Assembly (NCBI GenBank): GCA_017535725.1
Contig: JAFXTO010000031.1
Coordinates: 1-58,695 of the forward strand
Source: Bacteroidaceae bacterium
Lineage (GTDB): Bacteria; Bacteroidota; Bacteroidia; Bacteroidales; Bacteroidaceae
Length of the DNA: 58,695 bases
Reading direction: 5' to 3'
Below the pieces are notes generated by a model. The model worked only from the letters and a program-made list of their open reading frames with translations. It was not told the DNA's origin and made no database searches. Both the position numbers and the translations under genes were made by a program. Numbering within the stretch: the first letter of the stretch is position 1; each line of letters starts with the position of its first letter. Below are positions 4,322 through 55,316 of this stretch, piece by piece.

Positions 4322-7300
4322 ATGAAAAAAATCTTAACCCAATTAGTCCTGTTGTCCCTGTGCGCGATTGTCCAGGCTCAGAGTTGGTCTGGTACCGTCC
4401 CGACAGAGTACGACTACAATGACCAAACGATGGTGTGGGCATCGCTGACCGTAGAGAATGGCAGCGGCTCAGGCTATGTTATCGGTGCCTTTATCGATGA
4501 CGTCTGCCGCGGTGAATCCGAATTGATGACTTCCCCTACAGACGGTAGTCCCATTTACGTTATAACAGTACGTGGCAACAATGATGAGTCCGATTTAGGC
4601 AAAGCAATTACCTTCAAGGTCTATGATCCAGGTACGGGTCTGGAATATCCAATCACCCTTAACACGACCGCCCCGATTACCTTTGAACATGAAAAAACCT
4701 ACGGCTATCCTTCGGGCAGCATAGGGATGTCTGTCACGGTTCCGACGAGCTATAAACTGATCTTCAGCGAGGCCGAGGTTGGCAAGGCATACGAACTGAC
4801 GGAGTCGCTTCAAGTCAAGCCCACAGAGGCCACCCTGCCGCTGAACCTGGAGTGGTCCGTTACTCCTACGGAGGCAGCAGCAGCTGTCAGCCTGAAGGGT
4901 TCCACCCTGACCGCCCAGATGACGTACCCCTCCTCTCTGACCCTGTCCGTTTCAGGTCCCGGCAATCCTACCGCCGGTCCTTCCGCTCCCTTGGCTTCAT
5001 GCGAATTCCAAATCATTCGGCATGCCGATGCCATCACCCTTGTGCAGACGGAAAAACAAATCACCATTAATGACGTCGCTGAACTGAATGCATTCCTGAA
5101 GCAAGGCATCTCCTACCAGCTAACCCCCGGAGACGCGACCGACGAGGTGCTCTGGGAAGCAAACACTAATAACAGCTTAGTATGGAACGGCACAGGATTC
5201 GACATCGTGGGCGGCGGTGAAGCTCAGATTCGTCCGTACATCATGATAGGGGAACAGAAGCTCGTTCCGAAAGATCTCAACGGCAAAGAAGAGTGGATTA
5301 CGGTGACCGTGTTTGTTCCTGTGACGAGTATTGATGTGAGCTACACGCTGTGGGGCGGTGGAGATGACTCCTTCCGTGCCAACATGGGCGACGAGCACAT
5401 CTACGAACGTCTGTTGAAGATGATTAACGTGTATCCCAAGAATGCAACCGATACGACGTACACCATTTCCATCGTAGATGGTGACGGCACTGTGATTAAG
5501 AAGGAAGGGGAAACGCTGGTGCCTGTAAGCGCTGGTCCTTGTGTGCTGCGCATTACGTCCAACTACAATGCCCTCTCCGCCGCACCCAAGACCGCTGATG
5601 TCAACCTCACCATCGAGAATCCAGCTACGGACGCCATCATTCTGAAGCCCATCATCGATGTCATCTTGACCGATGGACAAAGTAAAGACATCACCAATGA
5701 AGTGTGTAACAATGTGACTTGGAATGGTGATACGGGAAATCTGGCAGCAGGTAGCTATGTGATGGTTTCCGGCACAACAGGATCTGTGACTGGTTCAGGC
5801 AGCTTCGGCAAAACAGGCATCGAAGGCACCTTCACCGCCGTGAAGGAAGGTATCTCTTCAATCTTAATGAATCTGGTATGGTATGACTATGACTCCTGGG
5901 GGATCACGAGTAATGAACTCAAGACAAAGAATAATTCGCCCATGTTCATAATCAATGTCCAAAATTATCTCACCCTATCCCGCTTCGAAGTCGCTGTTTC
6001 CAACCCCGTAGCTGGAGAGAACTGTATGATTATCCTCACTCCTAAGCCCGAAGGTGCCACCTTCGACCCGGCGGATATCACGCTGTCCTTCCATAACGGG
6101 TACGATGAAAATACCGAATGGGGACAAAAGTTCAAATTAGTACAGACAGCACCTCCTGCCCTCTTCTATCAGGTTACTTCCGAGATTCCCTGCCATGCCT
6201 TCATCGAAGTGAAGAACGGTGCTAAATTAGTTCCCCTGAACGACTCCGAGGCCACCCAATATGCGTTCCAGATTGGTTATCCCATGACCTTTGAAACAGG
6301 CTGGCAGTGGCGTTGTAACCCCTGGGGCTTTGTTTCCACGAATGACTTAGAAACCGTCTATTCCAAATCCATGATAGAGCTGCGCACCAGCAACAAATTA
6401 GTCTATAATGATCCTGCATGGGGTCTGTTCGGTACCCTCATGTCCACCCCGGGCATCCAACAGACGCAGTGCTACAAGATTAACATGGGCACAATGGAAG
6501 AACCGCAAACAACGGTGTTCTATAGCGTAACCGACAACACGCAAATCATGAACTGGAATGCTGAACAGAAGAAATACATCATCCCCATGAAGCCCGGCTG
6601 GAACTGGGTTGGTACTCCCTACTTCTTCGCCCATGATGTATCCTCCATCTTTGATAGTCCATCTGAACTTGATGGAGTTGTCATTATCGGAAAGACGGGT
6701 TCTACCGAATTTGGCAGCGGAACCTGGAATGGAGACCTTTCTGAAATTAAGCCTAATCAGGGCTATATCTTCTACAATCCCTCCACGGAGACCAAGAACC
6801 TGGTCTTAAAGCCAGAGGATCAGATCGTCGTTAACGCTGCTCCTGCTGGTGTTAAGGGCCTTGCACCTCTGCTCCAGATCTGGGAGTACGACCACACCCG
6901 CTTCATGAACAACATGTCGGTGGTTGCCGAACTGGAGGACATTGCCCATCCAGAGCAATACAGCATCGGTGCCTTTGTGGGCGACGAGTGCCGCGGCGAG
7001 GGCGTCATCAAGAATGGCAAGGCATTCATCACCGTTCACTGCGATGCCGGCGAGTATGTCACCTTCAAGCTCTACAGCCCCTACACCAATGACTTCTACA
7101 CCGTAGACGAAGGCCTGAAAGCCGTCACTCGCGTAGGTTCGCTGAAGGCTCCCTACAAGCTGCACTCCACAGGCGTGGTCGATGGCATCCGTTCCGTGGC
7201 GTCGTCATCCGATGATGCAAGTGCCGAGACCTACGACCTCAGCGGCCGCCGCGTCAACAACCAGCAGCAGGGCGTCGCTATCCGCCGTACTGCCGACGGT

Positions 7301-7327: not shown

Positions 7328-7567
7328 ATGAAAAATGAAAGAATGAAAAATGAAAAATAAAAAAAATGAATAAATGATAAGTGAAAAATGAAAAATGAAA
7401 AATTCGAGTTACATAGGTAACTTGCCCGACATATCCATAGTCATCAAAAGTAATTCTTATTTTTCATTTTTCATTCTTCACTCTTCATTAAGAACATTCT
7501 TCACTAATATTAGTAAGGTAATTCTTATTTTTCATTCTTCATTCTTTCATTTTTCACTCTTCATTAT
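7328..7567 (+). repeat. Inverted ATGAAAA/TTTTCAT arrays
   Basis: Just after the stop codon, 7328-7402 consists of ATGAAAAATGAA-type units on the sense strand. 7455-7567 carries the inverse (TTTTTCATTCTTCATT-type). Together they could form a long imperfect hairpin. Between them lies AGTTAC-ATAG-GTAACT (7407-7422), and ACTAATATTAGT at 7503-7514 is a perfect palindrome. I see no TAnnTTTG promoter in this gap, so the next gene may be read from the promoter at 4239. Confidence 0.75.
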
Positions 7568-7611
7568 TAATAAGGAACGCGCACCCGCGCGGAAAGAACG
7601 CATCCTGACGT

Positions 7612-9593: not shown

Positions 9594-12500
9594 ATGAAAG
9601 ATATGACAACATACAGTTCACATAATGATAGACTGACTAGGCAAGCTAGACATACTAGACTAACTAGATTAACTAGACTATCTAGACAAACTAGACAAAC
9701 TAGACAAACTAGTCTCACTAGTTCTACTAGACAAACTAGTCTTTTCAGAACCTTCTGCGTTCTGTTCTGCTTGTTCGTGGCCTCTACCGCGGACATCCAC
9801 CTTTCAACTTGCAACTTGCGACTTTCAACCTGCGCAGCCCAGGACATCACGGTGACGGTGACGCCTTCGCAGACCGTGTTGCCTCCGCAGGTGATGCTCT
9901 ATATCACCGAGCCATCTAACTACTTTACTATCTCCTTGACCAATACGGGCAAGGACAATGCCAACATCTATCTCGTCATGCAGGTCGAGCAGGTCAATCC
10001 CGCTTCCGGCCTCAGCCTGAGTACTCCCCCCGCCCGTCAGCCCAAAGTGCCCATTGTGGTTCCTGCAGGCGGCTCGCGCATCCTCACCCCCGCCGAGGTT
10101 CGCGGCCTCTTCAACCATATCCCGCTCAATGAAATCAAGGCGCCACAGGACCTCTTTGATAACAACAACGGTTCCTTCGGTCTTCTGCCCGAAGGCCAGT
10201 ACGAGCTGCACATGACCGCCTACCGCTGGGATCCCCTGCTTCCCAGCCCTGTCGTCGCCAGTTCCCCCTCCGGCGGCTTCGCCAGTTTCAGCGTCTGCTA
10301 CAACGCCCAGGCACCTCAGTTCCTGACGCCGTCCACCATCAGCCAGGAACTTCTGGCCGTGGCCGAACTCGACCCCTTGGCTCCGCAGTTCACCTGGCGC
10401 GCACCCGTCGTGGCTTGTAACCCTGCAGCGCTCCAATTTACTTATTCCATGCGTATCGTTGAGGTGCTGCCCGGCCAGCAACCCGACCAGTCTATGACCA
10501 GCAACCCGGTCACCTATCAGGTATCCAACCTCGCCACCCCCACCTGCCTCTTACCCGCGTCCGTCATCATGCAGATGAAGGAAGGCAAGACCTACGCGGC
10601 ACAGGTGACGGCTACCCAAACCAATGTCAACAGGACGATGCTCAACTACGTCAGCATCGCCAACAACGGCAAGAGCACCTACAAACTCTTCCGGCTCAAG
10701 GAAACAAAGAAGAAACAGGAGCAAGAGGATAACAACGATAAGAATGATGACGATGACGACGAGGATGACGGAGATGAAAAAGGAGGAGAAGAAGAAGACG
10801 ATGACATTTCTATCATCATGGCGGGTTCCAAGTCGAGCGACTTGGTAGAAGACTCCCTCTACACCTTCCGCAACCCGCGCATCCGCGAACCGCTGTTTGC
10901 AGATGACAGCGGTGCCCGCAAACGCTTCTTGGAGTCCGACATCGAAGTGACGTGGGAAGCTTCCTTATTTATGGGCGGCGAAGGCCATCGCAGCGATACC
11001 ATAGAGATAGAATATGAACTTCAGTTCTTCGACAACGGCGATAACGCCGACAAGGAAGAAACCCTGAAGACAGACCCGTTCTACACCTACCGCACCAAGG
11101 AGCTGAAACATAACATCGAATGGGATGACATCGAAAAGCATGTCAAAGAAGGAGATTATATGCTCCTGCGCATTCAGCCCATTATCAAGAAGGGACGTTC
11201 CATCGCATTCGTAGGCGACGAGAACACGGTGGACTTCGCCCTCTGCCAACGCCTGAGCCGCGAATATTTCGAGTGCCAGAGTCAAATGGAGATTGAAGAC
11301 AGGAAGCCGACCACCAAGAGTGCCAACGACCTCAAGGGAAAGGTCGTTCATATTGGTCAGTACGAGCTCACCATCGACGACATCAAGGGTTCTGGCAGCG
11401 GAGGTTTCTCAGGCACGGGCCGCGTGGAATGGAACCCCTTCGGCTCCAGCATCATGGTCTGTGTGAAATTCGATAATCTGAAACTCAACCAAGACGATAT
11501 CGTCTATGACGGCATCGCCGAGACCGTGGCAGCCCCCGATATGCTAAGCAGCATGCAGGTCGTCGACAAACTCTTCTCCGACTGGGGCATCGACAACCTC
11601 ATTGCAGACTCCAAGATTCCTTATGCCAGCCAGATACAGAACAAGGTCGATGGCAAAATCAAGAGCTTGGCAGAGCAAATCAACCTCGGCGATTATTACA
11701 GCAAGATGCAGAAAGGTAAGGATGTCTTCAAGATCCTTACCACCGGCAAGATGGACAAGCTCTATATGCCCGTGAAGTTCCCGACGGAGATCCTTCCCGA
11801 CAAGTTTGATGTCGTGGACCTCCAGATTGTCAATATGAAGTTCGCGCCGACGTATGCTACGATGAATGTCTTGGGCGAAGCAGCCATGCCCGAATGCGAC
11901 ATCCTCAAGAGCAAGGTCCTCGTCTTCGGAGCACCGCGTCTGTGCATCTCCCCTGACACCTTCCTACCACAAGACGGACAGATTGCCCTCCTCGGTGACT
12001 TCACCCTGACGCCCAGCAATATGGAACTGACGTTCAAGGCCCCGAAGGATCCCTTGAAGCCGAAGGACGGCTGCTATATCTCCTGGCACCAAGGTAAGCT
12101 GGAACTCCTCGGCATCGATGCCGACCTGAAGGTTGACGGGATGTACAAGGAAGTGAACGGCAAGCTCACCGACGAACTCGCCACCATGTACCTCAAGGGC
12201 TCTGTCGGCAGCTGGGACGATTTCCTCATCGACCGCATCTCCGTCGATGACTTCCAGATGAAGGACCTCCCCGGCTGGACCTTCCAGGCCAGTGATGTCG
12301 TCTTCGACCACTCCATCTACCGCAACTCCGACCACATGGGCAAGTTCCCCGAGAAGTACAACAAGAAGGAAGCTGGCATCATCAGCGGTGACACCCAGTG
12401 GCAGGGAGTGCACATCGGCAAGGTCGGCGTAGCCTTCCCCAAGTCGTTGGAGTTAGGCGAAGTAGATAAAGAACACAACGACCGCCGTCTCTGGGTAGGC

Positions 12501-18500: not shown

Positions 18501-21500
18501 ATGAACCTACCAGTGGTGGACGATGTTACCAATATGTTCGATGGTTGCGAAAAGCTCACCACCATCAACCTCGCAGGTCTGAACAGCAAGGAACTGAAGG
18601 ATATGGACAGCATGTTCAAGAACTGTAAGGCGCTCACGACGCTGTCCCTCCCCAACATCAACACCTCCAAGGCTGAGCTCATGGACAATATGTTCTCCGG
18701 CTGCTCGTCACTCACGTCGCTCAACCTGTCGAATTTCACCGGCGAGGCACTGGAGTCGTGTACCTTTATGTTTGCCGACTGCGTCAAGCTCTCCAGCCTG
18801 GATCTCCGCAACCTCGCACCAGAGGCCAGTATGACGTACACCCAGCACATGTTTTCCGGCTGCAAGGCCCTGAAGACCCTGCACATCGATATCTTCAACC
18901 CCAACATAGAAAAGTGGGTGGAATCGAATGGCTACATGTTCTATAATGTGCCCGGGACACTCACCACCTACTACTACTCTGAAATCAATCCCTTCATCCT
19001 CGATCAGATTCCCGGCACAAAGAAGGCCGTGGCAGACACCCGCGCCAAGGTCGTGCATGGTCGCTACAGCTCTGGCGACGAAGCCCTCTTCTTCATCTAT
19101 TCGGGCACCGACTATGTGAAGAACAAGAAATACACCATCACCACCAATATCACCGAGGACGGCTCCACCGAGACCAAGAACCACGAGATCACCGTCGTCG
19201 GAGCCTGGTCCGGCGACAATGTCATCAACACGGGCACTGCCCGTCCGGAATGGTGCAAGACCGGAACGAACGTGAGCAAAATCACTACCGCCTACATCGA
19301 CGACAAGTTCAAGGCCATGCCTCGTTCCCTCTATTGTTGGTTCTACCAGTTCACCAATCTGGAAACTGTCAAGGGCTTGAGGAACCTCAATATGGAGAAG
19401 GTGACCACCACCTCCTACATGTTCAAGCTCTGCAGCAACTTGAAGGATGTTTACATCAAACTAAACCAGGCTTCCAGCCTCACGAACATGAGTGGTATGT
19501 TCCACGGCTGCAAGGAACTCATCTCACCAACTGTCTTGTTGCAAAAGGATCATAAGGTTCGCTACATGGACTATATGTTCTATGGGTGCGAGAACCTGGA
19601 GACCTGCCCAGTAAGAGGCGGAAACGAAGTCACGACCACGAGCTACATGTATACCGGTTGCACCGGCCTGAGATACCCAGGTAGCACACCCTCCTTCACG
19701 ACGACCAAGGTGACAGACATGAGCTATATGTTCAAGGGTTGCTCCAATCTACGCAACCCGATGGGAATCTCTTCCACGGAAAACGTGACGAACATGAATG
19801 GTCTCTATCAGGACTGCAGTCGTCTGAACTCGGCCACCTTCTCCAATACGGAAAAGGTCACCAGCATGGACAATATGTTCTCGGGATGCACCTCGCTCTA
19901 CAACATCAACCTCGGCGAGATTACCACCACAGCGCTGAGGAGTTGTTCGAACATGTTCAAGGACGTGCCTCGCTCCAGTGTCATCTACATCGCCTACGAT
20001 GCCACCCGCGTCGTCAATGCATGTCCCGAATCGACCTGGCCTAACCGCGTGCTCATCTATCCCCTCAGCGCTGTTGTCCTGGGTTCCGGCAACCAGATGA
20101 AGCTGCATTTCTACGGTGGCAAGACCACCCAGAAGAAGGGTGATACCTACAACCGTTCGCCCTACAATGGATGGGTCATTGCAGACGTCTTCTCCGGCGC
20201 TCATGTCCAGAACCGAACAAGGAGCTCCATGAGCGGCACGTCTTACTCCAAGATGTGGAACGAGTATGCCGAAAAGATTATTGAAGTCACCATCGATGCC
20301 ACCTATAAGAAGGTCCAGTTGATCAACGCATACGGGTATTTCCAGAACATGAGCCAACTCACCGAAATCAAGGGTATCGGCAACCTGAACACCAAGTATT
20401 GTCAGGATCTCGGACGCTTGTTCAAGGGCTGCAAGAAACTGACGACCATCGAAGGTGGCTCCATCAGCACTGAAAACTGCATCTACACGGACTACATGTT
20501 CGCCGACTGCGAATCCCTAAGGAACATCACGGGCGTGCAGTTTGCCACTACCGACAACATCATAAAAGCGGAGCACATGTTCGAGAACTGCAAGAACATC
20601 TGGCAAATCAGTACGTCCAACTACCCGCATACGGGCAAGGTGCAGGATTTCTCTTACATGTTTGCCGGTTGCAGCTCGTTGACCAGTTTGTATCTTTCCT
20701 ACTTCAAGACCGGCTCCGCCTACTCGATGGCCAGCATGTTCGAAGGCTGCACCCAACTTAATTCCTTCAGCGGACTCAAGTACTTCGACGTGAAGAATGT
20801 CTATGAGTTCGACAATATGTTCAAAGACTGTGCTGCCGCCACCAGTATTGACATTTCGACGTGGCCCCTCAATACAAGTCTCAATGGAGCCAGCCGTCCT
20901 ATGGACGGCAGGAGGACCATCAACGGCATGTTTGCCGGCTGCACCAGCCTGCGCAAACTGACGCTGGGCACGAACTTCGACCTTGACTATGTCGAGACCT
21001 CCAAATCTTCGCCCTTCGCCTCGGTCAAGAATCTCAGTGTGATTGTTCCCAAGGACAAGCTTACGGCAATCAAGAAGGGGCTGACCACGTACCACAGCTT
21101 CCATGTGCCTTCCACCGGACAGTTTTACGACGAAACCGCCACAGAGACGGCACAGGTCATCTGGACGCCGCAATGCAGCACGCTGACCTTCTTCTACGGA
21201 ATGCCCGTACAGGTCGGCGGCACCTTCAACGGCCATCCCGTGAACGCCGTGTGGTCCGGCAAGGACGTACTGGACAACAACAGCGACTCGCCCAAGTGGT
21301 ACTCCACCGCTGCCGACAGGTGTACCGTCGTTACCTTCGACAACTCGTTTGCCAATGCCCGTCCCACCAGCACCCGCGCCTGGTTCTCCGGCTTCAAGAA
21401 ACTCAAGGTAATCAACAACCTCGAGAACTTGCATACCGTCAATGTGACCAACATGTCCCGCATGTTCATGAACTGTGAAAGTCTGACCAGCCTGGAGTTC

Positions 21501-23393
21501 ACCAGCGGCAACTGGGATATGCGCAAGGTAACCACCGTCTCCAACATATTCGCGGGATGCAAGGGACTCACCAGCATCACCCTGACGAGGTTCTGCGACA
21601 CCCGCAGTCTGACGGACATCAACAGTATGTTCAGCAATTGCCAGAAGCTGAAGGAAGTAAACCTCACCAGCTTCAGCACGGCCAGCGTGACGTCGGCTAA
21701 CTATCTCTTCAACGCCTGCTTCGCCCTGAAGACCCTGAAGGTAGGTTCTGGCTTCAACTTCCCGTCGATGTCATCCAAGGCCAGCTACGCCTTCTCCAGC
21801 GTCTCGAACTTGGAAATCATTGCCACGAGTTCCGTGCTCAGCTCCGTGCAGACGCCCATCAAGAACAAGCTCGGCTTCATCGAGAAGGAAGGCGGTACCA
21901 ACGGCGAGTTCGTCGCCACCGACAAGATGGGCATCCAAGCGCTGTGGTTCTCCTCCAAGAACCTGCTGGTATTCCTCTATGGCAAGGAGTACAAGAAAGG
22001 CGGCAAGTACGATGGCAACACCATCACGGAGGTATGGAAAGTCAGCGGCTCACCGTGGACGAGCACCGTCAAGGATAAGCTGACGACGGTGAGATTCGAC
22101 GAGAGCATGAAGGATCGCTACGTCTATTCCACCGCAAACTGGTTCCGTGACTGTTCGAAACTCACCACCATCAGCAATGCCAATTACCTAAACACCTCGC
22201 AATGCACCAATATGAGCTACATGTTCTATGGGTGTTCATCCCTGGCCTTCGTTTACTCGACCAACTGGGACACCAAGAACGTCACCAATATGTGCTATAT
22301 GTTCTACAATTGCGAAAGCCTCTACGGGATGGACTTCACCAAGTGGAACACCGCCAAGGTCACCAATATGGGTGCGATGTTCTATGGCTGTAAGAGCCTG
22401 AAGTCGCTGGACCTCAGCAACTGGAATACCGCCGCGGTGAAGGACATGTACGGAATGTTCCGCCTCTGCGAGAATCTGACCACCATCACCGGCTTAGACA
22501 AGTGGAACACCAGCTTCGTAAACAATATGTCCTACATGTTCTCCGACTGCAAGAAGCTGACCACCTTCGAACCCCTGTTCTTCAACACCGGCAACGTCAC
22601 CACCATGTACTCGATGTTCGAAAACTGCGAATCGTGGTACAGTAGCGGATACTCTGTGGAACTCGTACCCAAGTACGATGTGAGAAAGGTGACGAGCATG
22701 GGCTATATGTTCTCCGGATGCAAGTCCTTGAAGAGGATTTCACTGTCAAGCTGGGAGACCAGCAGTCTGACGAATATGTGCGCCATGTTCCAAAACTGCA
22801 ACGTATCAAGGATAAAGTTCGGCGACAAGTGGAATACCAGTAAGGTAACCGACATGTCCAAGTTATTCAAGGGTTGTTCGAATCTACTCTCCGAAAGCGG
22901 AGCCTACTTAGACATGTCCATGTTCAATACATCCAACGTGACGACGATGTACCAGATGTTCATGGGCTGTGCGAAGATTGTCTCTCTTGATTTAAATAAC
23001 TTCAATGTTTCCAAGGTGACAAGCATGAGTTCGATGTTCGAGAATTGCGACAAACTCCGCGAACTGAAACTCCGCTTCAAGGGCACCATGAAGAGCGGTG
23101 TCTATGTCTCGAGCATTTTCAAGAAAGCTGCAAGCAATACCACCAGCCTCATGGTAGAAATCAACTCAACATTCAGGGTAACGACGAGCCACCGGAGCAG
23201 TGGGTGCTTTACTAACAATAAAGTCATTTTTGACTTCTATAGCAGCTATAACAGTGAGAATTCAACGGAGAAGAGCAACGTAAAGACCGCGCTCTACAAT
23301 ATGGGCTACCAGTATCCCAAGGATTCCACCTCCGGCATTGCATATTATTACAACTTCGCGAACGGGACTTACAAATTCCTCTCCAAACAATGA
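9594..23393 (+). CDS. Giant surface protein with five BspA-like LRR modules
   Basis: About 4,599 residues from the ATG at 9594 (ATG 9603 is an alternative). A Thr/Arg/Gln-rich stretch (about 14-49) from a 9-bp repeat precedes the hydrophobic signal core (about 50-66); cleavage is likely after Ala-Ala near 82. Next comes an N-terminal beta domain (about 83-230) that recalls, from memory only, the TANFOR-type domain of Bacteroidota surface proteins. Then follow an acidic run (about 372-405), a long region of Gly-rich amphipathic strands (about 550-1900) interrupted by a short coiled coil (about 1500-1541), and a mixed region to about 2770. The rest is five modules, each a leader of roughly 80-90 residues plus LRRs of about 23-25 residues with the motif MxxMFxxCxxL and T-x-x-V-T-x-M joints. 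There is no type IX sorting tail. BspA-like LRR proteins include adhesins; here binding is inferred, not shown. The next gene starts 17 nt downstream. Confidence 0.88.
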   Translation: MKDMTTYSSHNDRLTRQARHTRLTRLTRLSRQTRQTRQTSLTSSTRQTSLFRTFCVLFCLFVASTADIHLSTCNLRLSTCAAQDITVTVTPSQTVLPPQVMLYITEPSNYFTISLTNTGKDNANIYLVMQVEQVNPASGLSLSTPPARQPKVPIVVPAGGSRILTPAEVRGLFNHIPLNEIKAPQDLFDNNNGSFGLLPEGQYELHMTAYRWDPLLPSPVVASSPSGGFASFSVCYNAQAPQFLTPSTISQELLAVAELDPLAPQFTWRAPVVACNPAALQFTYSMRIVEVLPGQQPDQSMTSNPVTYQVSNLATPTCLLPASVIMQMKEGKTYAAQVTATQTNVNRTMLNYVSIANNGKSTYKLFRLKETKKKQEQEDNNDKNDDDDDEDDGDEKGGEEEDDDISIIMAGSKSSDLVEDSLYTFRNPRIREPLFADDSGARKRFLESDIEVTWEASLFMGGEGHRSDTIEIEYELQFFDNGDNADKEETLKTDPFYTYRTKELKHNIEWDDIEKHVKEGDYMLLRIQPIIKKGRSIAFVGDENTVDFALCQRLSREYFECQSQMEIEDRKPTTKSANDLKGKVVHIGQYELTIDDIKGSGSGGFSGTGRVEWNPFGSSIMVCVKFDNLKLNQDDIVYDGIAETVAAPDMLSSMQVVDKLFSDWGIDNLIADSKIPYASQIQNKVDGKIKSLAEQINLGDYYSKMQKGKDVFKILTTGKMDKLYMPVKFPTEILPDKFDVVDLQIVNMKFAPTYATMNVLGEAAMPECDILKSKVLVFGAPRLCISPDTFLPQDGQIALLGDFTLTPSNMELTFKAPKDPLKPKDGCYISWHQGKLELLGIDADLKVDGMYKEVNGKLTDELATMYLKGSVGSWDDFLIDRISVDDFQMKDLPGWTFQASDVVFDHSIYRNSDHMGKFPEKYNKKEAGIISGDTQWQGVHIGKVGVAFPKSLELGEVDKEHNDRRLWVGAKEMFIDKSGVTVTIGAENVFAAKEGTLGGWGISLDEAHVQIIQNDFDNCGFTGQINVPILKRQKGSEHEGEFGNVKYTCQIRELSNPNNEKGKKNANDKNKRLSYIFLTEQVEPLDFSFLVGQATLDQDQTYFLVDAYDDPDKPGKVKTQIELCLGGEIGIGAIDKANDWLVEKTKSLPLELKIPELHFTKMRFSNVSEADDWVINDKRVEDKRKARDAAAKGIHDKALKILVEGKEFNAGTEQEPFYINLGEWSFASADKHIGPFTFNLTEFKPNFDSGTKKLSLEVGGSIGLCEVIDVGATVIISAKVNIPDYSKPKTWSISDGDVEFKALHLDLDWTALHFHGDLEATKAPNKGYSGTLEIDIVGFFKLDCKGGYYEHTKDAKDNKDRDFSWGYFMASVESSAGIHADPVVINRISGGFFFNCRPTKGENKFDGDPEVAYGNIGVALGLGLCTTAGKETLSADLDLLVVYDSDNKCLSTFMFNGKIEAVSGIITAECSLIYENEKNSAGVTQNRYLCLNVTAEAGMDTNALINKVKGMNESLKSLQGKLNEFQGKIDGVYQKVTNAASGMGVMSGDYNKPKKDGKNKEESEEIEASAGSAKITLEFKVTWVKDGKKYPTPKWHLYLGEPDEAHRCTFTFLKFKSPIITVDIGANGYLCLGNELPNNGALPEIPPKITEFLSGHKADQADMGADLGKAQRSRKAAAKALLDPNSLNGGIMVGASAWGSITLDLGLLYGSLDAIAGFDAALVNYGNMAYCMNSGSSMGYEGWYAMGQLYAFLQADLGIHVHIGNFINEKISILYAGIGGVLEMGLPNPTWMEGSARIKISLLGGLCKINKKFDFSAGDHCVPFKGNALDGFEMFQGVSHGSDSLYQALLDPTFAISLDDAKHMTFNTQSSIGSHYRLIDPSWESELKDKAQTTQADVEKSIALNASRTYVFDMDQDLNYYSMKKGVRLFDLGTTATDLINAGKGTKDNLYKAMKTNTYGSILNNAQKGNPLFENLSDYIINNMSERSGTVAETSMIMGSKELNSSVSDYLADTWQSRIDEMLGSNTLTAKDGKKNVSFSALKYTPTEVNCSFRETQGTTFHLTGMNLKAGHSYALFLMADAFEIENGRRIWCQYIKNGKENRIHWRQTKAWFFRVKSDEEEKIITDSLRNLEPYIALAYPSYNGTRVRDERGEGDLRAYYNDILKPTIALNRDIRTSLPADKMKWVLEGYTAAGDTLKPQTRDAVYKKNGNCINLEPASAFKPFEEFTNTAKGNSRYDFNQEKYRLKLLYTYRHKEQIPTFGAKARFTGIQYKEKGDSTVVLVDLPIITLPHDVKIISDTYTDSWKEVTQEANAELLPYSLPFVGASMDSIPHILYENDYRTKNLSDEDLVFRNVTFSGTDLPYRLIDPYMYFAYLGKWVFIGDREISAYAFDKVPVKFGSESLIFNYNGTVVNSEFLKVSKKLGERNKSLIELRDQMYSVWNNWSYNDDSHPKYPLPSVGSAIGGITANNQDGKTSTVTPININHNLQRDYTYVFEDLLKDYVAVYNVADTISTYLWAQSRTLLDKFYSTMKSKGTCSGDAFNSSFNKSVMDYNELHRGQYLESKSRGYSVRLPYYQLPLIFGDCFGGGATYNGKKLDRADRTFTKSIGENDLSSGDGDPDDATLSMRWPSEASNLLFFRLCGANAGDNIRGFNNQLFKTYSIDYSNNYPSANHVNRDRFRRNKALEQVTRFKARIYRVDGYDIDKGLYVVTNKTNGRGGGPWEATVNIGLDTKGTKNLSDMYKAVEEQDAYRETHYDKQIPQAAWCEDTKTILLCYSSTILKVGEQAIPFTGSKSAGTITKVFTGDDVVNGLWRRTTSIRDKCTKVIVHQSMSLCVNEWFKSSLKNFFYGLKNVTTIEGMRHLSSPDTNDMTQMFYNCESLTTIDFSDWYTQGVTSMAYMFGNCKKLKSLDLKKFNTQKVTNMQGMFKGCESLTTLNINNFKGDAVKDCGYMFNGCKNLYSLSMSSMNLPVVDDVTNMFDGCEKLTTINLAGLNSKELKDMDSMFKNCKALTTLSLPNINTSKAELMDNMFSGCSSLTSLNLSNFTGEALESCTFMFADCVKLSSLDLRNLAPEASMTYTQHMFSGCKALKTLHIDIFNPNIEKWVESNGYMFYNVPGTLTTYYYSEINPFILDQIPGTKKAVADTRAKVVHGRYSSGDEALFFIYSGTDYVKNKKYTITTNITEDGSTETKNHEITVVGAWSGDNVINTGTARPEWCKTGTNVSKITTAYIDDKFKAMPRSLYCWFYQFTNLETVKGLRNLNMEKVTTTSYMFKLCSNLKDVYIKLNQASSLTNMSGMFHGCKELISPTVLLQKDHKVRYMDYMFYGCENLETCPVRGGNEVTTTSYMYTGCTGLRYPGSTPSFTTTKVTDMSYMFKGCSNLRNPMGISSTENVTNMNGLYQDCSRLNSATFSNTEKVTSMDNMFSGCTSLYNINLGEITTTALRSCSNMFKDVPRSSVIYIAYDATRVVNACPESTWPNRVLIYPLSAVVLGSGNQMKLHFYGGKTTQKKGDTYNRSPYNGWVIADVFSGAHVQNRTRSSMSGTSYSKMWNEYAEKIIEVTIDATYKKVQLINAYGYFQNMSQLTEIKGIGNLNTKYCQDLGRLFKGCKKLTTIEGGSISTENCIYTDYMFADCESLRNITGVQFATTDNIIKAEHMFENCKNIWQISTSNYPHTGKVQDFSYMFAGCSSLTSLYLSYFKTGSAYSMASMFEGCTQLNSFSGLKYFDVKNVYEFDNMFKDCAAATSIDISTWPLNTSLNGASRPMDGRRTINGMFAGCTSLRKLTLGTNFDLDYVETSKSSPFASVKNLSVIVPKDKLTAIKKGLTTYHSFHVPSTGQFYDETATETAQVIWTPQCSTLTFFYGMPVQVGGTFNGHPVNAVWSGKDVLDNNSDSPKWYSTAADRCTVVTFDNSFANARPTSTRAWFSGFKKLKVINNLENLHTVNVTNMSRMFMNCESLTSLEFTSGNWDMRKVTTVSNIFAGCKGLTSITLTRFCDTRSLTDINSMFSNCQKLKEVNLTSFSTASVTSANYLFNACFALKTLKVGSGFNFPSMSSKASYAFSSVSNLEIIATSSVLSSVQTPIKNKLGFIEKEGGTNGEFVATDKMGIQALWFSSKNLLVFLYGKEYKKGGKYDGNTITEVWKVSGSPWTSTVKDKLTTVRFDESMKDRYVYSTANWFRDCSKLTTISNANYLNTSQCTNMSYMFYGCSSLAFVYSTNWDTKNVTNMCYMFYNCESLYGMDFTKWNTAKVTNMGAMFYGCKSLKSLDLSNWNTAAVKDMYGMFRLCENLTTITGLDKWNTSFVNNMSYMFSDCKKLTTFEPLFFNTGNVTTMYSMFENCESWYSSGYSVELVPKYDVRKVTSMGYMFSGCKSLKRISLSSWETSSLTNMCAMFQNCNVSRIKFGDKWNTSKVTDMSKLFKGCSNLLSESGAYLDMSMFNTSNVTTMYQMFMGCAKIVSLDLNNFNVSKVTSMSSMFENCDKLRELKLRFKGTMKSGVYVSSIFKKAASNTTSLMVEINSTFRVTTSHRSSGCFTNNKVIFDFYSSYNSENSTEKSNVKTALYNMGYQYPKDSTSGIAYYYNFANGTYKFLSKQ
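9633..9740 (+). repeat. ACTAGACAA 9-bp microsatellite in signal region
   Basis: About eleven units of ACTAGACAA or close variants (ACTAGATTA, ACTAGACTA) encode Thr-Arg-Gln/Leu triplets before the hydrophobic core of the signal peptide. Each unit is three codons, so copy-number change would lengthen or shorten the cationic N-region without a frameshift. The next coding stretch (about 9800-9830) is a CTTTCAACTTGCAACTTG-type repeat in the C-region of the same signal peptide. Confidence 0.85.
17900..23090 (+). repeat. Five-fold module duplication in the giant gene
   Basis: Five leader-plus-LRR modules start near 17905, 19083, 20098, 21176 and 21950. Leaders share a pattern of the type L-x-F-x-YG...G-x-x-Y-x-G...VWSG, then T-x-V-x-FD-x-S and a W-F-x-x-F-x-x-L segment. 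Each is followed by LRRs: roughly 18165-18930, 19355-19990, 20340-21000, 21400-21790 and 22150-23090. Four modules end in a valine-rich cap such as VPGTLTTYYY or LSVIVPKDKL. Divergence between copies makes this an old duplication. Confidence 0.82.
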
Positions 23394-23410
23394 GATAACA
23401 GGAAATGACT

Positions 23411-25786
23411 ATGAAGATACAATCAAGCATATTGAGTCTGGTACTTCTCGCCAGCAGCCTCACGGCGGTGGCGCAAGAGGTCGATACCACCGGCATAGAT
23501 CCACATACCGCCGTCAAGGAGAAGCGGGTGCTGCCCCGTGTGACATCAAAGATACACCTGATGACCCGAGCCTACGGCGACAGCATCGTGCTGCGCTGGG
23601 TGGCAGAGGACTACGTGTCCTTTAACTACCTGGCTCGCCTGGGAGTGAATGTGCTGCGTGTGCCGCGCGCCATGGTGGGCGACACCCTCGACCTCTCTGA
23701 GTTCCGCATCGACACCCTCGCCTACGAACTCATGCCGCTGACGCTGGAACAGTTCCGTGCCAAGTACGCCGAGAACGACAGCAACGCCTACGTCGCCATG
23801 GGGGTGCTCTACGGCGAGAAGGAGAACTACCACAAGCAGAACGAGGGCTTTGCGGACGAGACCCAGAACCGAAGCAACGACCAGGACCTCAACTACGGTC
23901 TCTCGATGCTGATGGTTGACTGGCGTAAGGACATCGCCGAGGATATGGCGGTGCGCTTCACCGACCGACAGGTAGAGCGCGGCCGCATCTATGACTACTA
24001 CATCCAGCCCACGGTGTGGGACAACGGCGGCAAGCTCATCTTCGAGCCGGGCGTGGCAGAAGGGGTGGCCAATGTGCCCTACAAACCCGCTCCCTATCAG
24101 CCCAGCATCACAGACTCCGTCAAGCCCAACAGCTCTGTACAGATTGGCTGGTGGGACAAGGCACACTCCAGTTTCGAGGTGGAACGCCGGCAGGTCACCG
24201 ACCTGAAAGGACAGGCAGTCAACGGCAGCTGGGAGCGCGTCACCAAAAAGCCCTACGTGCCCATGGTGCAACAGGGCGACGATGAGGACTACTGCCTCAT
24301 CGTGGATTCCGTGCCGCAGCTTGGACTCTGGAACTACCGCATCCTGGGCCACGACCCCTTCGGTGAACTGACAGAGCCCGCCGAATACAGCGTGATGGTG
24401 CCGGATATGGATCCGCCCTCGCCACCCACCCTGAAGTACATCGTCATCGAACGACCGGACAGCACAGACCTCATGGCGAAGGTCATCGCGCACGTCGTCT
24501 GGGAGAAAGGCATCCACGAAGAAGACCTCGCTGGCTACCGAATCTTCTACCAGCCCATGCGCGACCACGCCGAAGGTTGGAAGATGCTGACGCCGAACCT
24601 GATTGCTCCCACCGACACGCTCTTCTCCGTCGATATGACGGGCAGACGCACCGGCATGATGTACATCTCCGCCTACGACGACACGGGCAACGAGTCGAAG
24701 TCCATGCTGCAACAAATTCGGCTGACGGACTACAAGGCACCGGGCATCCCAGACAACTTCCACGCCACCGTCCGCAAGATTGATATCGAGAAGGACACCG
24801 CCGTGTTGCGTTCCAAGTGGGCATACGTCGATCTCTACTGGCAGCCAAAAGCCGAAGACGATGACATCGACTACTTCGACGTCGCCTTTGCCAACGACAG
24901 CACCCACGAATTCCTCAACCGCAACGAAGGCGGTATCCGACAATCGACCTTCACCGATTCACTCTCGCTGAACGCCAACCAGAAATATATATATTATAAG
25001 GTACGCGCGATAGACCAGAGCACGAACATCGGCGAGTGGAGCGACTGGATTCAGGTCGAACGCCCACACATGACACCGCCTACGGCACCCCACCTCGGCA
25101 AGTCCGAACACAGCGATGAGAAGGGCATGCACATGGAATGGATTGTGGGTGCCGACGCTGACATGAAGGAGCACGTGCTCTACCGCCGCCTCGGCGAGGA
25201 GGGCGAACCGGAGGTCATCGGGACCTGGGATGCAGACTCCGTGAAGTTGAAGAACAACATCATCATTGTCGATGACAATCCACCCTACGTGCAGCGGCAA
25301 CGTTACTACTACTGGATGTCGAGCGAGAACGCCTCGCCCTTCATCAGCAACAGCCTGGCGGTCAGTTGGAAGCACCAGGGACCGCGCGTCCTGGATATCT
25401 TCGTCAGACTGGAAGGCCGATTCGACTTCGACGACCAAGCCGTAGAACTGACCTGGCAGACGGGTGAAGAGAACCTCCCCGATGCCGACTGGCACTGGGC
25501 CATCTTCCGCAAAGGTCCCGGCGACGAGGGCTTCAAGTACTATATGTCCGCCGCAAAGACCGACCGCACCTACACCGACCACAGCCTCAGCGCTGGCGAG
25601 ACCGCAGAGTACTACGTCCGCCTGCAATTAGACGACGGACGCAGCAGCGACAACTCCGCCTCAGTGGAGATCCGCGCCATAGACCCGAGCCTGCCGGAAG
25701 TTCCAGAAGCACAAGAGGAAACGGTAATTCCGGAATCACAAGAGGAATCGGAAACTCCAGAAGAAGAGGCTCCCGCAGCCCCTTAA
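23411..25786 (+). CDS. Secreted fibronectin-III-like multidomain protein
   Basis: About 791 residues. AGGA at 23400-23403 lies 7 nt before ATG 23411, favouring it over ATG 23405. A signal peptide (MKIQSSILSLVLLASSLTAV-) is followed by a unique N-terminal region (about 30-220). Then come about five fibronectin-III-like beta sandwiches, each recognisable by a Trp on strand B: SVQIGWWDK, IAHVVWEKG, VDLYWQPK, MHMEWIVG and VELTWQTG. The tail is Pro/Glu-rich (EVPEAQEETVIPESQEESE) and could be a flexible linker. There is no lipobox and no sorting tail. It sits 17 nt after the giant gene, so the two are surely co-transcribed; a partner or assembly role for the giant protein is inferred from that. Function unknown. 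Confidence 0.8.
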   Translation: MKIQSSILSLVLLASSLTAVAQEVDTTGIDPHTAVKEKRVLPRVTSKIHLMTRAYGDSIVLRWVAEDYVSFNYLARLGVNVLRVPRAMVGDTLDLSEFRIDTLAYELMPLTLEQFRAKYAENDSNAYVAMGVLYGEKENYHKQNEGFADETQNRSNDQDLNYGLSMLMVDWRKDIAEDMAVRFTDRQVERGRIYDYYIQPTVWDNGGKLIFEPGVAEGVANVPYKPAPYQPSITDSVKPNSSVQIGWWDKAHSSFEVERRQVTDLKGQAVNGSWERVTKKPYVPMVQQGDDEDYCLIVDSVPQLGLWNYRILGHDPFGELTEPAEYSVMVPDMDPPSPPTLKYIVIERPDSTDLMAKVIAHVVWEKGIHEEDLAGYRIFYQPMRDHAEGWKMLTPNLIAPTDTLFSVDMTGRRTGMMYISAYDDTGNESKSMLQQIRLTDYKAPGIPDNFHATVRKIDIEKDTAVLRSKWAYVDLYWQPKAEDDDIDYFDVAFANDSTHEFLNRNEGGIRQSTFTDSLSLNANQKYIYYKVRAIDQSTNIGEWSDWIQVERPHMTPPTAPHLGKSEHSDEKGMHMEWIVGADADMKEHVLYRRLGEEGEPEVIGTWDADSVKLKNNIIIVDDNPPYVQRQRYYYWMSSENASPFISNSLAVSWKHQGPRVLDIFVRLEGRFDFDDQAVELTWQTGEENLPDADWHWAIFRKGPGDEGFKYYMSAAKTDRTYTDHSLSAGETAEYYVRLQLDDGRSSDNSASVEIRAIDPSLPEVPEAQEETVIPESQEESETPEEEAPAAP

Positions 25787-25816
25787 GACCATTCGCTCAT
25801 AAACCCCATCACTCCT

Positions 25817-26686
25817 ATGAGAAAGATTTCCAAGATACTCCGCCTGCTATTCTGCTCGGCTCTGCTCGTGCAGATGGCGAGCTGCGAATTGATAGACTTC
25901 GATGTCGATAGCGACCTCTCGCAGATAGCTGCCCAGATGAAGCTGAACTTCGACACGGCTTACGTCTATCAAGGCTATATCGTACATGTGACACCGACCT
26001 TCGAGCCCGACTCGCTGAACATCAGCGATGTCTATATCACCACATCGGACTCCTCGGTGGTGAACGTGAATATGCTGACGGGACAGATCAAGGCCGTAGG
26101 TGTCGGCTGGGCCACGCTCTACGTGGAGTCGGTGTCCGCCCAGATTCAGGACAGTTGCCATGTCTATGTCATGGCACCCTGGGAAGTGGCAGCGGAGACC
26201 TTTCCCTACGAAACCGTATTCTACGCCGATGTCACCGTCAAGGGCGAACCCTTGAACGAGAATATGGTGGTGGCCGCTTTCGTCAACGGCGAATGTAGGG
26301 GTGTGGGCGAAGCCCTGTCGTTCCATGGTATCGACCTCATGCAACTACGAGTGTGGGCGGAAAACATCTATGATGATTCAAAGGTGCCCAATATCCCAGA
26401 CGTGACAGGGAACGACGATGATGATGAAGACGATGAAGACGAAGAAGATGAAGATGAAGAAGATGAAGACGAAGACGAAGAGGAGGAGGATGACGAAGAA
26501 GATGACAACAGCCCGCTGGAACCCGAAGATGGTGTCGATCCCACGCCAACCCTTTATAAGCCTATCATTACATTTCGGTGCTACGATAAGAAGAAACTCA
26601 AACTCTACGAATCCGATATCACTGAGGAGTTCGACTGCGAGACCCACGGAACACTCTCCAAACTGTATAAGATAAACTTTAAGTAG
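25817..26686 (+). CDS. Lipoprotein with Ig-like (Big_2) domain and acidic run
   Basis: This 289-residue lipoprotein has its lipobox at QMASC (Cys about 23), followed by acidic residues, as in Bacteroidota lipoproteins exported to the surface. A bacterial Ig-like group 2 domain (about 45-115) is marked by DSSVVNVNMLTGQIKAVGVG and ATLYV. A second domain carries VAAFVNGECRGVGEA, the same motif as in the protein at 4322. Residues about 200-235 are almost all Asp/Glu, which may bind cations or act as a stiff spacer. It starts 30 nt after the fibronectin-like gene. Its role is inferred to be in the same surface assembly. Confidence 0.8.
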   Translation: MRKISKILRLLFCSALLVQMASCELIDFDVDSDLSQIAAQMKLNFDTAYVYQGYIVHVTPTFEPDSLNISDVYITTSDSSVVNVNMLTGQIKAVGVGWATLYVESVSAQIQDSCHVYVMAPWEVAAETFPYETVFYADVTVKGEPLNENMVVAAFVNGECRGVGEALSFHGIDLMQLRVWAENIYDDSKVPNIPDVTGNDDDDEDDEDEEDEDEEDEDEDEEEEDDEEDDNSPLEPEDGVDPTPTLYKPIITFRCYDKKKLKLYESDITEEFDCETHGTLSKLYKINFK

Positions 26687-26726
26687 AGGGAAACGAAACT
26701 GAGTCAAATATAAAATACAACATAGT

Positions 26727-29456
26727 ATGAAAAGGTTTTATATTATATATCTTTTAGGTAGTCTTTCCCTGTTCGCTGGCTGCACCCTCTCTATGGAAGA
26801 ATGGGAAATCTCCGAAGAAGACCGGGGCAAGGACGAGATTTACACCGAAGAGACTGAATACGGAGACATCTCCTACCAGTTCGCGGACAGCGTGCTCTAT
26901 GTCACAGACAATATTCAGGAACAGTATCTCGTTCGCGTGGAGCGCGATAGCATCCTGTACTTCAGCGACCTGCTTCCCGACGAGTGGCGTCCCTACGTCG
27001 GCATGAAGATGGCTGCCGGCATCTCGCACATGTTGCCATACGGTCTTAACCACCGCGTCATTTCCGTACAGAATGTGGGAGGTTTCTACAAGGTGGTCAC
27101 CACAAAGACCTCCATCGAGGATGTATATAAGCACCTCAGCTATTGCATCGACATGGACGTGGCAGCCCCCGACCTCGGAGGCATGGACAGTACGGAACTG
27201 GCGGACTACGGCTACCAGATGCACATTGACCCCGTGACGGGCGATACCACCATTATTGACTGGAACGACTACGACATCGCCCAGGGCGAACGACCGGCAT
27301 ACGCCCGACGCAAATCACTCATTCGCACTCGCGCTGAGAAAGAGATGGATGAGAAGAAGGCCGACGAGAGCGGTGTAGAAACCACTACATGGTTCGATGT
27401 AATGCTTGACACACGCGATGTCAGTAAAATCAAAGAAGGCGCAGGATTTGCGGCCAAGGCCTGGCACGGAATCAACACGGCATTTTTGGACAAAGTGAAG
27501 GCGGCATCAGCAAAGGCCGCGAAAAAGAAAATTGACTGGGATTTCTACGCCGGCTTTGGCATGAAGCTGACAAGTTTTACGCATGTTCATGCTGAACGCG
27601 ACGAGGAAAAGAACTATGAATGTGACTATACGGATACCTGGACGGAATTTGATTTCCGTGCCGAAGTGGGTTTTGAAGCAAAGAATAATTCAAATTATGA
27701 CAAACAACCCAATCTTGCATACTACGACAACGTAAACTTTGGCATTCCTGCTCGCGAGTTCATCGATGGCATGAAGGATGCGATGAAGGGAAAAGCAATA
27801 CCCTCCAAGCTGTCTGATGCCAAGAAGTCCTGGAATAACCTGAAGGTTCGCATCATACTCCCTTTAGCATGTCCTGTTACCGTTGCCATTATCCTCGAAG
27901 GATCCATCACCCCACAAGTGGTGCTCAACGGTTGCCTCTGTGCTAAATTCAAATATACCAGTGACAAAGTCCGTTCCGGACAGGAGGTAAGGAATGGTGA
28001 ACCCAAGAAATACGAGGATGAAGTCATTGAGGAAGGTAAATTCGAGAACGACGGACTGGTCGGCAAAGGCAGCTTCAAGGTGGGAGCGAGCTTCCGTGCT
28101 GCTGTCGGTTTCGAGGTGGCTTCGTCAGTAGGCCTTACCGTGGGTGCTAACATGGATGTCTTCCTTGAAGGAAATATCAGTGCCGACATTGGTAAGATGA
28201 TTGTGGACCAGCAGGAGGAACACAACGTCATCAACAACATTAAAGGCGACGTCAGATTCTATTGCGACATCTATGGGGATATACGCATCTTTGTGGCTCC
28301 ATTGGGCATCAGCCTCTGGGAAAAACAGACAAATAAATTCCTTGTTAAAAACCTTTTCAACTATGCCTACTCCGTGAGCCCAAGTGTCATTGCGAAAAAT
28401 GCCGAAGGGAGGTTCCAATTCGGGAACGTCGCTGACACAGAGATTCCTGACCAGTTTGGTTATGTTGACCAATGGATTTGCTACCGTAACCTCGACGGCA
28501 TCAATTCCTTCTTCTCCAAAGGTCTGAGATATGCAGGCGCTAAGTGCTACTTCGGTCCTATCAAGGACAATAAATGGATTTTGATGACACCTGTGGATAA
28601 CAACTATGATCCCTATTCAAATGTTGGGAAATACGGTTTGGCATCAGCTGGGCCAACCTACCGATTCCGCTCATTCGTGGATTTGGCAAAATATGCCGAC
28701 AAACCCAATGAACCTATTCAAGAGCTACACGTCGTGCCAGTGTTCTACAGCTATAAATCAGACTACAACCCTACTTTTTCTGCAAATAACTTTGAGCAGT
28801 CATTGAAATACATCGACTATGATAACATCATTGAACTCACCAGCGAAGACATCATTGTAGATACGGGCAAACCCCTCATAACTACGCTGCATGCAGGACA
28901 CATCGAAAGCATGGATATCGATGAGATGGTGGACAAAGGACAGTATATCGGGTGGAATGGTAATAGCGACGGCAACAAAAACGGCATCAACCAGATTGAA
29001 AAAGGAAAATCAAAAGCCCTGCGATTATATACGTTCTATACCACCGTCAAGGTGCAAGGCGGTAGCCTCATGGATGGATGGGGACTTACTGTGTACATCC
29101 TTAGTCCTAAGAAGAAGACGTTGTTGAAACAGGTGATTCCCGTCAACAAACTCCGAACTGGAACTTACTCCTTCCTATTCAGTTTCTACTCCGACTGGGC
29201 ACCACAGAGTATGGTCGCCAACCCAGAAGACGAGGAGGATTTGCAGACTGACGAATCCAAACTCTACTTCCAAGTAACGCCCTATTGGAACGTATCCGCA
29301 GGGAACGAGATGATGACCGTACCCGCAGCAGACAAGAAATCGCTCCGCAAGTTCCCCATCACCTATTTCAAGGATGATGACAGTAACATGTGGACAAAGA
29401 TTACGAAAAACCCAGGCACCTACGGAGAGAGCGACAACATCAACCTCACTCAGTAG
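26727..29456 (+). CDS. Large lipoprotein, last gene of the surface cluster
   Basis: This 909-residue lipoprotein has a signal peptide with the lipobox LFAGC (Cys about 19), followed by a Glu-rich stretch (MEEWEISEEDRGKDE) that may act as a surface-export signal. Residues about 240-620 alternate short helices and Gly-rich strands (VGASFRAAVGFEVASSVGLT), somewhat like the central part of the giant protein. I cannot name a family. It begins 40 nt after the Ig-like lipoprotein. No clear terminator follows it, and mnmA converges from the other strand 21 bp later. Confidence 0.75.
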   Translation: MKRFYIIYLLGSLSLFAGCTLSMEEWEISEEDRGKDEIYTEETEYGDISYQFADSVLYVTDNIQEQYLVRVERDSILYFSDLLPDEWRPYVGMKMAAGISHMLPYGLNHRVISVQNVGGFYKVVTTKTSIEDVYKHLSYCIDMDVAAPDLGGMDSTELADYGYQMHIDPVTGDTTIIDWNDYDIAQGERPAYARRKSLIRTRAEKEMDEKKADESGVETTTWFDVMLDTRDVSKIKEGAGFAAKAWHGINTAFLDKVKAASAKAAKKKIDWDFYAGFGMKLTSFTHVHAERDEEKNYECDYTDTWTEFDFRAEVGFEAKNNSNYDKQPNLAYYDNVNFGIPAREFIDGMKDAMKGKAIPSKLSDAKKSWNNLKVRIILPLACPVTVAIILEGSITPQVVLNGCLCAKFKYTSDKVRSGQEVRNGEPKKYEDEVIEEGKFENDGLVGKGSFKVGASFRAAVGFEVASSVGLTVGANMDVFLEGNISADIGKMIVDQQEEHNVINNIKGDVRFYCDIYGDIRIFVAPLGISLWEKQTNKFLVKNLFNYAYSVSPSVIAKNAEGRFQFGNVADTEIPDQFGYVDQWICYRNLDGINSFFSKGLRYAGAKCYFGPIKDNKWILMTPVDNNYDPYSNVGKYGLASAGPTYRFRSFVDLAKYADKPNEPIQELHVVPVFYSYKSDYNPTFSANNFEQSLKYIDYDNIIELTSEDIIVDTGKPLITTLHAGHIESMDIDEMVDKGQYIGWNGNSDGNKNGINQIEKGKSKALRLYTFYTTVKVQGGSLMDGWGLTVYILSPKKKTLLKQVIPVNKLRTGTYSFLFSFYSDWAPQSMVANPEDEEDLQTDESKLYFQVTPYWNVSAGNEMMTVPAADKKSLRKFPITYFKDDDSNMWTKITKNPGTYGESDNINLTQ

Positions 29457-55303: not shown

Positions 55304-55316
55304 ATTATTTTGATAT

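Follow-up and report, generated by a model that had tools for sequence, protein, structure and literature searches.

Among the polymorphic toxins of Bacteroidota, TANFOR proteins make up a published class (Jana, Salomon and Bosis 2020, PMC7073777). As described in the parts of that paper covered here, they are large Sec-exported proteins with a conserved N-terminus and a variable C-terminus, and both Fn3 genes and genes for substrates of the type IX secretion system (T9SS) are enriched near their genes. For their exit from the cell, the T9SS is the published suggestion. A second described group, the PARCEL/DUF285 proteins with BspA-like leucine-rich repeats (LRRs), is also exported and carries tandem repeats of ~25 residues (Roske et al. 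2010, PMC2996958, as far as covered). Here we report on a six-gene cluster in a 58,695-nucleotide stretch of DNA (hereafter the window), which is one entire contig, JAFXTO010000031.1, of a 2.9-Mb, 76% complete Bacteroidaceae assembly (GCA_017535725.1). The genes encode, in order, a secreted protein (gene 1), an outer-membrane barrel, a giant protein, a fibronectin-like (FN3) partner and two lipoproteins. Judged by sequence comparison, the N-terminus of the giant is a distant TANFOR relative, reached via intermediates. We think it fairly probable that the cluster is a toxin-less, ligand-binding display version of the Bacteroidota TANFOR system, with LRRs at the tip.

The giant holds a TANFOR-like domain, a core, a tail and the repeats in a single chain. 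Its final ~1,800 residues (~40%) are DUF285/PARCEL (BspA-like) repeats, which had gone unnoticed in an earlier note on this DNA. PF03382 matches over 11 stretches (Pfam; E 3e-146, 479 bits against a cut-off of 25), and TIGR02167 matches at E 6e-91 (NCBIfam; 297 bits against a cut-off of 30). The array has 32 MFxxC motifs and, by our own division, five modules, which start at residues 2769, 3162, 3500, 3860 and 4122. Only DUF285 and LRR families match the giant in Pfam and NCBIfam, with no recognised C-terminal toxin domain, and the tail matches no Pfam family, toxins included. The core is predicted to be all-beta (pLDDT 71). Unlike in the described PARCEL/DUF285 proteins, as far as the source goes, the repeats here terminate a TANFOR/core giant inside a conserved gene order.

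As for the kinship with TANFOR proteins, an independent check used profiles built solely from named loci of other families, with no sequence of the window's genus (65 TANFOR-like domains, 28 cores and 3 FN3 proteins). On the window proteins these profiles reached E 5e-11 for the TANFOR-like domain, 3e-87 for the core, 5e-66 for the barrel and 2e-45 for the FN3 partner. A genus-only TANFOR-like profile finds 26 of the 65 named domains at E 1e-3. The giant of genome G041, directly after a barrel, matches the curated TANFOR model TIGR02542 (E 5.6e-17, 63 bits, below the 67-bit cut-off) and aligns with the N-terminus of the window giant, with E values of 3e-14 and 3e-8 in the two directions of comparison. 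In the joint alignment of TANFOR-like domains, 39 of 69 match TIGR02542 at E 0.01, the window's own not being among them.

Like the described TANFOR toxins, the window giant is a large protein with a predicted Sec signal, a homologous N-terminal domain and a C-terminus that varies among relatives. Near it lie an FN3-like gene, whose fn3 match is weak, and a possible T9SS substrate (gene 1, whose tail has no curated match). It differs from what the parts of that paper describe in having no recognised toxin, no gene between giant and FN3 gene, an LRR end and a core fused to the TANFOR-like part. The earlier note knew no named system of this composition; this is right only in part, as the giant distantly belongs to the TANFOR polymorphic proteins, although the word "barrel" is absent from the text of PMC7073777 and no core partner appears in the parts covered. 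The literature covered, with subscription papers and preprints outside it, yielded no paper on the barrel/core association.

The cluster recurs within the genus. With the barrel as query against 60 relatives and the own genome (61 genomes), barrels were found in 10 genomes. Besides the own genome, which has two copies, these are 5 of the 36 other members of the genus and 4 of the 24 from other families. The full order from gene 1 through the two lipoproteins is found again in the second copy of the own genome, G018:C22, G032 and G016. The G003 locus runs from gene 1 through the FN3 gene, with genes 5 and 6 not recognisable; the G033 locus runs from the barrel, where its contig begins, through the last lipoprotein; and two further G018 loci end at contig edges within the giant. 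Relatives of genes 1, 5 and 6 were seen in the genus only. The FN3 gene lies directly 3' of the giant, at 6-78 nt with none between, in all seven genus loci that hold both. The genus copies seen also have the TANFOR-like domain and the core in one chain. In the barrel tree, made by a quick method and with long branches flagged, the genus falls into one clade.

Complete genus giants span 2,459-4,599 residues. They are conserved over residues ~70-1920 (31-66% identity), while length and content vary beyond. Tail residues 2067-2720 show a weak likeness to three other genus giants. Among copies reaching that far, the LRR array is common only to the window and G018:C152, and identity between these two giants falls from 62% in the N-terminal part to 43% in the array. 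DUF285 matches occur in 15 of the 61 genomes; among the matches listed, those of G003, G016 and G033, the three other cluster-bearing genomes with listed matches besides G018, are off the cluster contig.

As to surroundings, eight genes downstream of the cluster were compared with the stretches around the other copies. For mnmA and alaS these stretches contain no relative, so the gene set appears to sit in differing surroundings as far as they reach. For relA, another of the eight, the G003 stretch does contain a relative, of 31% identity.

Beyond the genus, the barrel alignment was scanned over one genome per species (84,980 species), which gave at least 520 confirmed relatives of at least 571 candidates; the named loci are the best 80 of the 520. 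For each of the three partners (TANFOR-like domain, core and FN3 protein), a hidden Markov model was built from the window's genus and six other-family sequences (G060, G041, G054, Emticicia, Runella and Persicobacter, not all in each model), none of them from the 80 named loci. Where at least 1.5 kb was available downstream, the gene after the barrel is TANFOR-like in 59 of 72 loci (54 alone, 5 with core signal as well), at a median distance of 10 nt (54 loci). For the remaining 13 it is a core gene (3) or unlabelled (10). With at least 9 kb downstream (61 loci), a TANFOR-like match is present anywhere in the locus in 57, a core match in 51 and either in 58. In 48 named loci a core gene comes after a TANFOR-like one, separated from it by 0-5 genes, mostly one or two. 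The other side of the barrel, taken as a control, is varied: a TANFOR-like gene lies directly upstream only in L125, on the opposite strand, and the same-strand upstream genes, among those listed, belong to many families.

The reverse test covered 296 genomes drawn over the phylum, with cut-offs of about E 1e-14 for the TANFOR-like domain (97 places), 4e-20 for the barrel (101) and 2e-109 for the core (36), weaker matches being dropped. Relatives of the giant are not regularly found without the barrel: a barrel lies within 10 kb of 74 of the 97 TANFOR-like matches, all on the same strand, where about 0.5% would be expected (random position, 4 Mb, one barrel), and within 10 kb of 30 of the 36 core matches. 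Conversely, 75 of the 101 barrel matches have a TANFOR-like match within that distance, 78 have at least one of the two partners and the other 23 have none. A listed barrel match is present in each of the 65 genomes with a listed TANFOR-like match, and 5 of the 70 barrel genomes lack a TANFOR-like match above the cut-off, two of which (G200, G276) have weaker ones. Core and TANFOR-like domain share one open reading frame (ORF) in 22 of the 36 core matches. FN3 relatives occur in 64 of the 296 genomes at E 1e-20; for those with E<1e-100, 32 of 34 have a barrel, TANFOR-like or core match within 10 kb, judged by eye, the misses being G345:C21 and G284:C11.

The TANFOR-like alignment is biased towards barrel neighbours, with 65 of its 69 rows from barrel loci, so the curated TIGR02542 is the fairer witness. 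It has 11 matches in 8 of the 296 genomes; a barrel lies within 10 kb of 5 and within 12 kb of 7, and 4 are nowhere near one. Furthermore, four of 72,556 plasmid records hold barrel relatives. On an Emticicia plasmid the barrel precedes a giant with the annotation HNH endonuclease, behind which comes an SMI1/KNR4 gene; we read these two as toxin and immunity. ParA genes in two plasmid loci are matched by one of the eight genes that follow the window cluster. The earlier note had suggested that the six genes may form one system, a view strongly supported by the order kept in the genus and by the kernel that recurs across the phylum.

The coordinates of the cluster are collected in Table 1.

Table 1. 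Features of the cluster, with positions in the window
Feature	Position	Strand	Evidence
Hybrid two-component regulator, divergent from cluster	1020..4058	-	Pfam matches
Gene 1: secreted protein, possible T9SS substrate	4322..7327	+	Signal peptide by eye; homologues upstream of barrel in genus loci
Gene 2: outer-membrane barrel, 26 predicted strands and C-terminal helix	7612..9417	+	Structure model
Gene 3: giant, 4,599 residues; single chain of TANFOR-like domain, core, tail and DUF285 array	9594..23393	+	
TANFOR-like N-terminal domain of giant, residues 84-375	9843..10718	+	Other-family profile E 5e-11
Core of giant, residues 740-1930	11811..15383	+	Other-family profile E 3e-87; own gene in many other loci
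Tail of giant, core to repeats	15384..17897	+	No Pfam family; weakly common to other genus giants
DUF285/PARCEL LRR array of giant	17898..23123	+	PF03382, TIGR02167
Gene 4: FN3-like secreted partner	23405..25786	+	Weak fn3 match; other-family profile
Gene 5: lipoprotein, acidic residues after Cys and long acidic run	25817..26686	+	Homologues in genus loci
Gene 6: large lipoprotein, conserved acidic residues after Cys	26727..29456	+	Homologues in genus loci

Much of the layout given in the earlier note agrees with these measurements. The six plus-strand genes form one run from 4322 to 29456, and each of the six products opens, on inspection by eye, with a Sec signal peptide or a lipobox. The count of residues in the giant fits the ~4,600 given before, and the divergent upstream regulator is as described. 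The last four genes, placed 17-40 nt apart, have measured gaps of 11 nt (17 nt if the FN3 gene starts at its second ATG), 30 nt and 40 nt; further upstream, the gaps are 284 nt between gene 1 and the barrel and 176 nt between barrel and giant. The protein called a barrel is modelled as a 26-stranded outer-membrane barrel, and both lipoproteins do have acidic residues soon after the lipobox Cys.

By structural comparison, the barrel model, with 26 strands counted and a C-terminal helix, has as its top row by Z (21.0, against 17.0 for the next) chain B of 6r2q, MtrB, the barrel of the Mtr complex. The two share 11% identity, with a Foldseek TM-score of only 0.52. MtrB serves as a sheath in the Mtr complex, and the window barrel as modelled is like it in fold and size. 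The cluster differs in having no cytochrome family among its six products at E 0.1 (Pfam, NCBIfam), and no electron-transfer claim is made for the window barrel. As modelled, it is perhaps wide enough to hold or pass a protein.

From the homology and synteny observed, we infer surface display, an export route, a role for the barrel and ligand binding as follows. The giant would be exported by Sec to the periplasm and would then reach the surface via the 26-strand barrel or the T9SS. The barrel and the two lipoproteins would hold it at the outer membrane, and the LRR array would be an outward tip that binds a partner cell, a host protein or a glycan. The hybrid regulator would switch the set on upon a sensed signal. 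The earlier suggestion of an adhesin or a host- or glycan-binding protein is plausible, because the predicted tip is an LRR array and not a recognised toxin.

A broader proposal can be made tentatively: barrel, core and FN3 partner may form a dedicated, unnamed outer-membrane machine that exports TANFOR proteins or fires them at neighbours, with a toxin payload in some lineages and an LRR adhesin tip in the window's genus. Such a machine would be widespread in Bacteroidota, with barrel relatives also in some contigs titled Chlorobiota. For TANFOR export, for which the T9SS is the published suggestion (PMC7073777, as far as covered), the wide barrel, so regularly encoded right beside TANFOR-like genes and joined by two further partners, is a concrete candidate. 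The window appears to bear an LRR tip on the same chassis in place of a toxin, which, if true, would link interbacterial weapons and surface adhesins within one phylum.

Several observations weigh against a toxin-less TANFOR display system. The window's TANFOR-like domain has no TIGR02542 match at E 0.01, and its own genome has none at E 0.001. This domain is the weakest link, since the other-family profile reaches 5 of 9 genus giants or fragments at E 0.01, and the kinship of the window giant depends on intermediate sequences. The model of the core is weak (pTM 0.49). FN3 relatives appear in 10 of the 80 named loci, where the 10-kb flanks often stop inside the core gene. In the reverse test, 23 of 97 TANFOR-like and 26 of 101 barrel matches are without the opposite partner within 10 kb. 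Core matches come from 31 genomes, all within the 65 TANFOR-like genomes; the set is not always a quartet, as about half of the TANFOR-like genomes have no recognisable core. Contact between barrel and giant, the surface location of the giant and binding by the array are steps that we infer.

The toxin side of the comparison also counts among these points. At least 37 of 48 C-termini of other loci have no recognised toxin in Pfam, and a recognised immunity family is absent from 71 of the 73 genes that follow. A toxin that goes unrecognised, or one directed at eukaryotes and without immunity, is possible in the giant.

Another account gives the export route to the T9SS. SprA (TIGR04189) is present in the own genome (G000:C45) and in 53 of the 61 genomes searched, so a T9SS is probably available. 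PorP/SprF serves as an accessory for SprB, and the SprB/SprF and PorP/SprF systems resemble the cluster in pairing a giant surface protein with an outer-membrane helper. In 3 of the 4 loci tested, a PorP/SprF-OmpA fusion is encoded ahead of the barrel, adjoining it in some loci, which is a tie to the T9SS. These observations, together with the T9SS export of TANFOR proteins proposed by Jana et al. (PMC7073777, as far as covered), make it a serious alternative that export and anchoring of the giant fall to the T9SS alone, with the barrel as an accessory and not a conduit. However, the giant matches no T9SS sorting model at E 0.1 in NCBIfam. The PorP/SprF family was found in only 11 of the 98 loci compared (distant SprF genes were not searched), as against a barrel near about three quarters of the TANFOR-like matches. 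The window barrel, with about 26 strands, also differs from PorP/SprF in matching no NCBIfam family at E 0.1, and so not TIGR03519. We hold this alternative to be credible but somewhat unlikely, and it would alter the route, not the identity of the system.

Next, the giant could be an active polymorphic toxin, with an unrecognised toxin (for example in the tail, residues 1930-2770) delivered by contact and the LRR array as its receptor-binding part. Relatives with the same chassis do carry toxins. Their TANFOR-like domains have 47% mean column identity (69 rows) against 9% for the last 300 residues (48 rows), and toxin families were found in Pfam on at most 11 of the 48 ends, overlaps being possible: WHH (2), Endonuclea_NS_2 (2), ART (2), ADPrib_exo_Tox (2), Toxin-deaminase (1), Colicin-DNase (1) and EndoU (1). 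Of the 75 short genes that follow, 73 were compared with Pfam, those of 548 and 588 residues being set aside. They include immunity families twice (SUKH, Imm3) and the toxin families TNT and EndoU once each, most matching nothing or other families. As so few toxin and immunity families were found, the toxin character of these loci draws on the minority of recognised ends and on published work. That most ends elsewhere are also unrecognised by Pfam, like the tail of the giant, would fit a hidden toxin. Against it, a classical immunity gene is missing between giant and FN3 gene, since nothing intervenes in any of the seven genus loci; the weakly common part of the tail is shared with three other genus giants and not swapped; and genes 5 and 6 encode exported lipoproteins that are kept along with the cluster. 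In our view a hidden toxin is possible but unlikely, and less likely than a TANFOR chassis that ends in a binding array, which is the most economical account.

More doubtful still is a Sus-type machine for nutrient or glycan uptake, in which the giant would be a substrate-capturing arm beside the barrel and lipoproteins. Hybrid two-component regulators and surface lipoproteins, both of which the locus appears to have, are typical of Sus-type loci. Finally, that the six genes are mere exported neighbours without a common function, which the two wide gaps upstream of the giant could suggest, is very improbable, as the order repeated in genus and phylum already contradicts it and excludes a chance origin of the cluster.

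Turning to the individual genes, the earlier note had gene 1 as a type IX-sorted protein. No PF18962 or TIGR04183 sorting match was found at E 0.1 (Pfam, NCBIfam), so no curated model backs the label; a profile of its C-terminal tail does match the exact C-terminus of two other proteins in one genus locus (E<1e-5). The fibronectin-like label of gene 4 holds insofar as a PF00041 match exists, and it is weak (E 0.015, 15.9 bits against a cut-off of 25). An acidic signal after the lipid Cys marks surface lipoproteins in this phylum (PMC5080379, as far as covered). In the last lipoprotein, C-[TV]-L-x-[ML]-[ED] is kept in the window and the five relatives compared.

Gene 1 and the first lipoprotein appear to have a common domain with the motif AF[IV]xxxCRG, and this lipoprotein matches the gene 1 homologue of G003 at E 6e-6. 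It has an Asp/Glu run at 26414-26499. The regulator comprises TPR, HisKA, HATPase, receiver and AraC-type HTH domains. The G018:C152 copy has a 52% identical gene in the same divergent position upstream, and in G018:C22 and G000:C28 this place is taken by shorter genes that match the regulator in part.

In the giant, a second Asp/Glu run follows the TANFOR-like domain at about 10730-10820. Before the signal peptide, its ORF opens with a translated tandem repeat (27-base unit; 9629-9739), which means that translation may really begin further downstream.

Elsewhere in the phylum, some barrels lie near ORFs of ~3,600-4,200 residues with a TANFOR-like N-terminus and no core match, another branch of giants (G172:C1, G082:C29 and C86, G168:C1, G219:C34, G295:C7, G326:C1 and G291:C1). 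Barrel ORFs of ~810-850 residues with an extra part of ~250 residues are seen in L115, L123, L130 and other Flavobacteriaceae loci. The contigs of the barrel relatives in L110 and L145 are titled Chlorobiota/Chlorobi. An LRR-like protein with a T9SS sorting tail (TIGR04183) is encoded at L126:7711-9183, a short way downstream of an FN3 relative and upstream of the barrel, so barrel loci may have LRR proteins as recurrent companions.

A G-rich palindromic repeat of ~25 bases was not found in the scanned stretches from relatives and is present in the own genome, at 1829 (within the regulator gene) and 44840 of the window, at L042:6354 and at L043:11022 and 11829. It is read as part of the protein in the regulator gene and, in the second copy, close to where two lipoprotein genes begin. 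Lastly, intergenic arrays of 7-8-base repeats (AAATGAA, AAAGTTGA, TTGAAAAG / TTTCAACT) occur at 7326-7565, 9419-9602, 33950-34157 and 55315-55442; some of the repeats form oppositely oriented pairs, and the arrays flank the barrel gene on both sides, among other sites.

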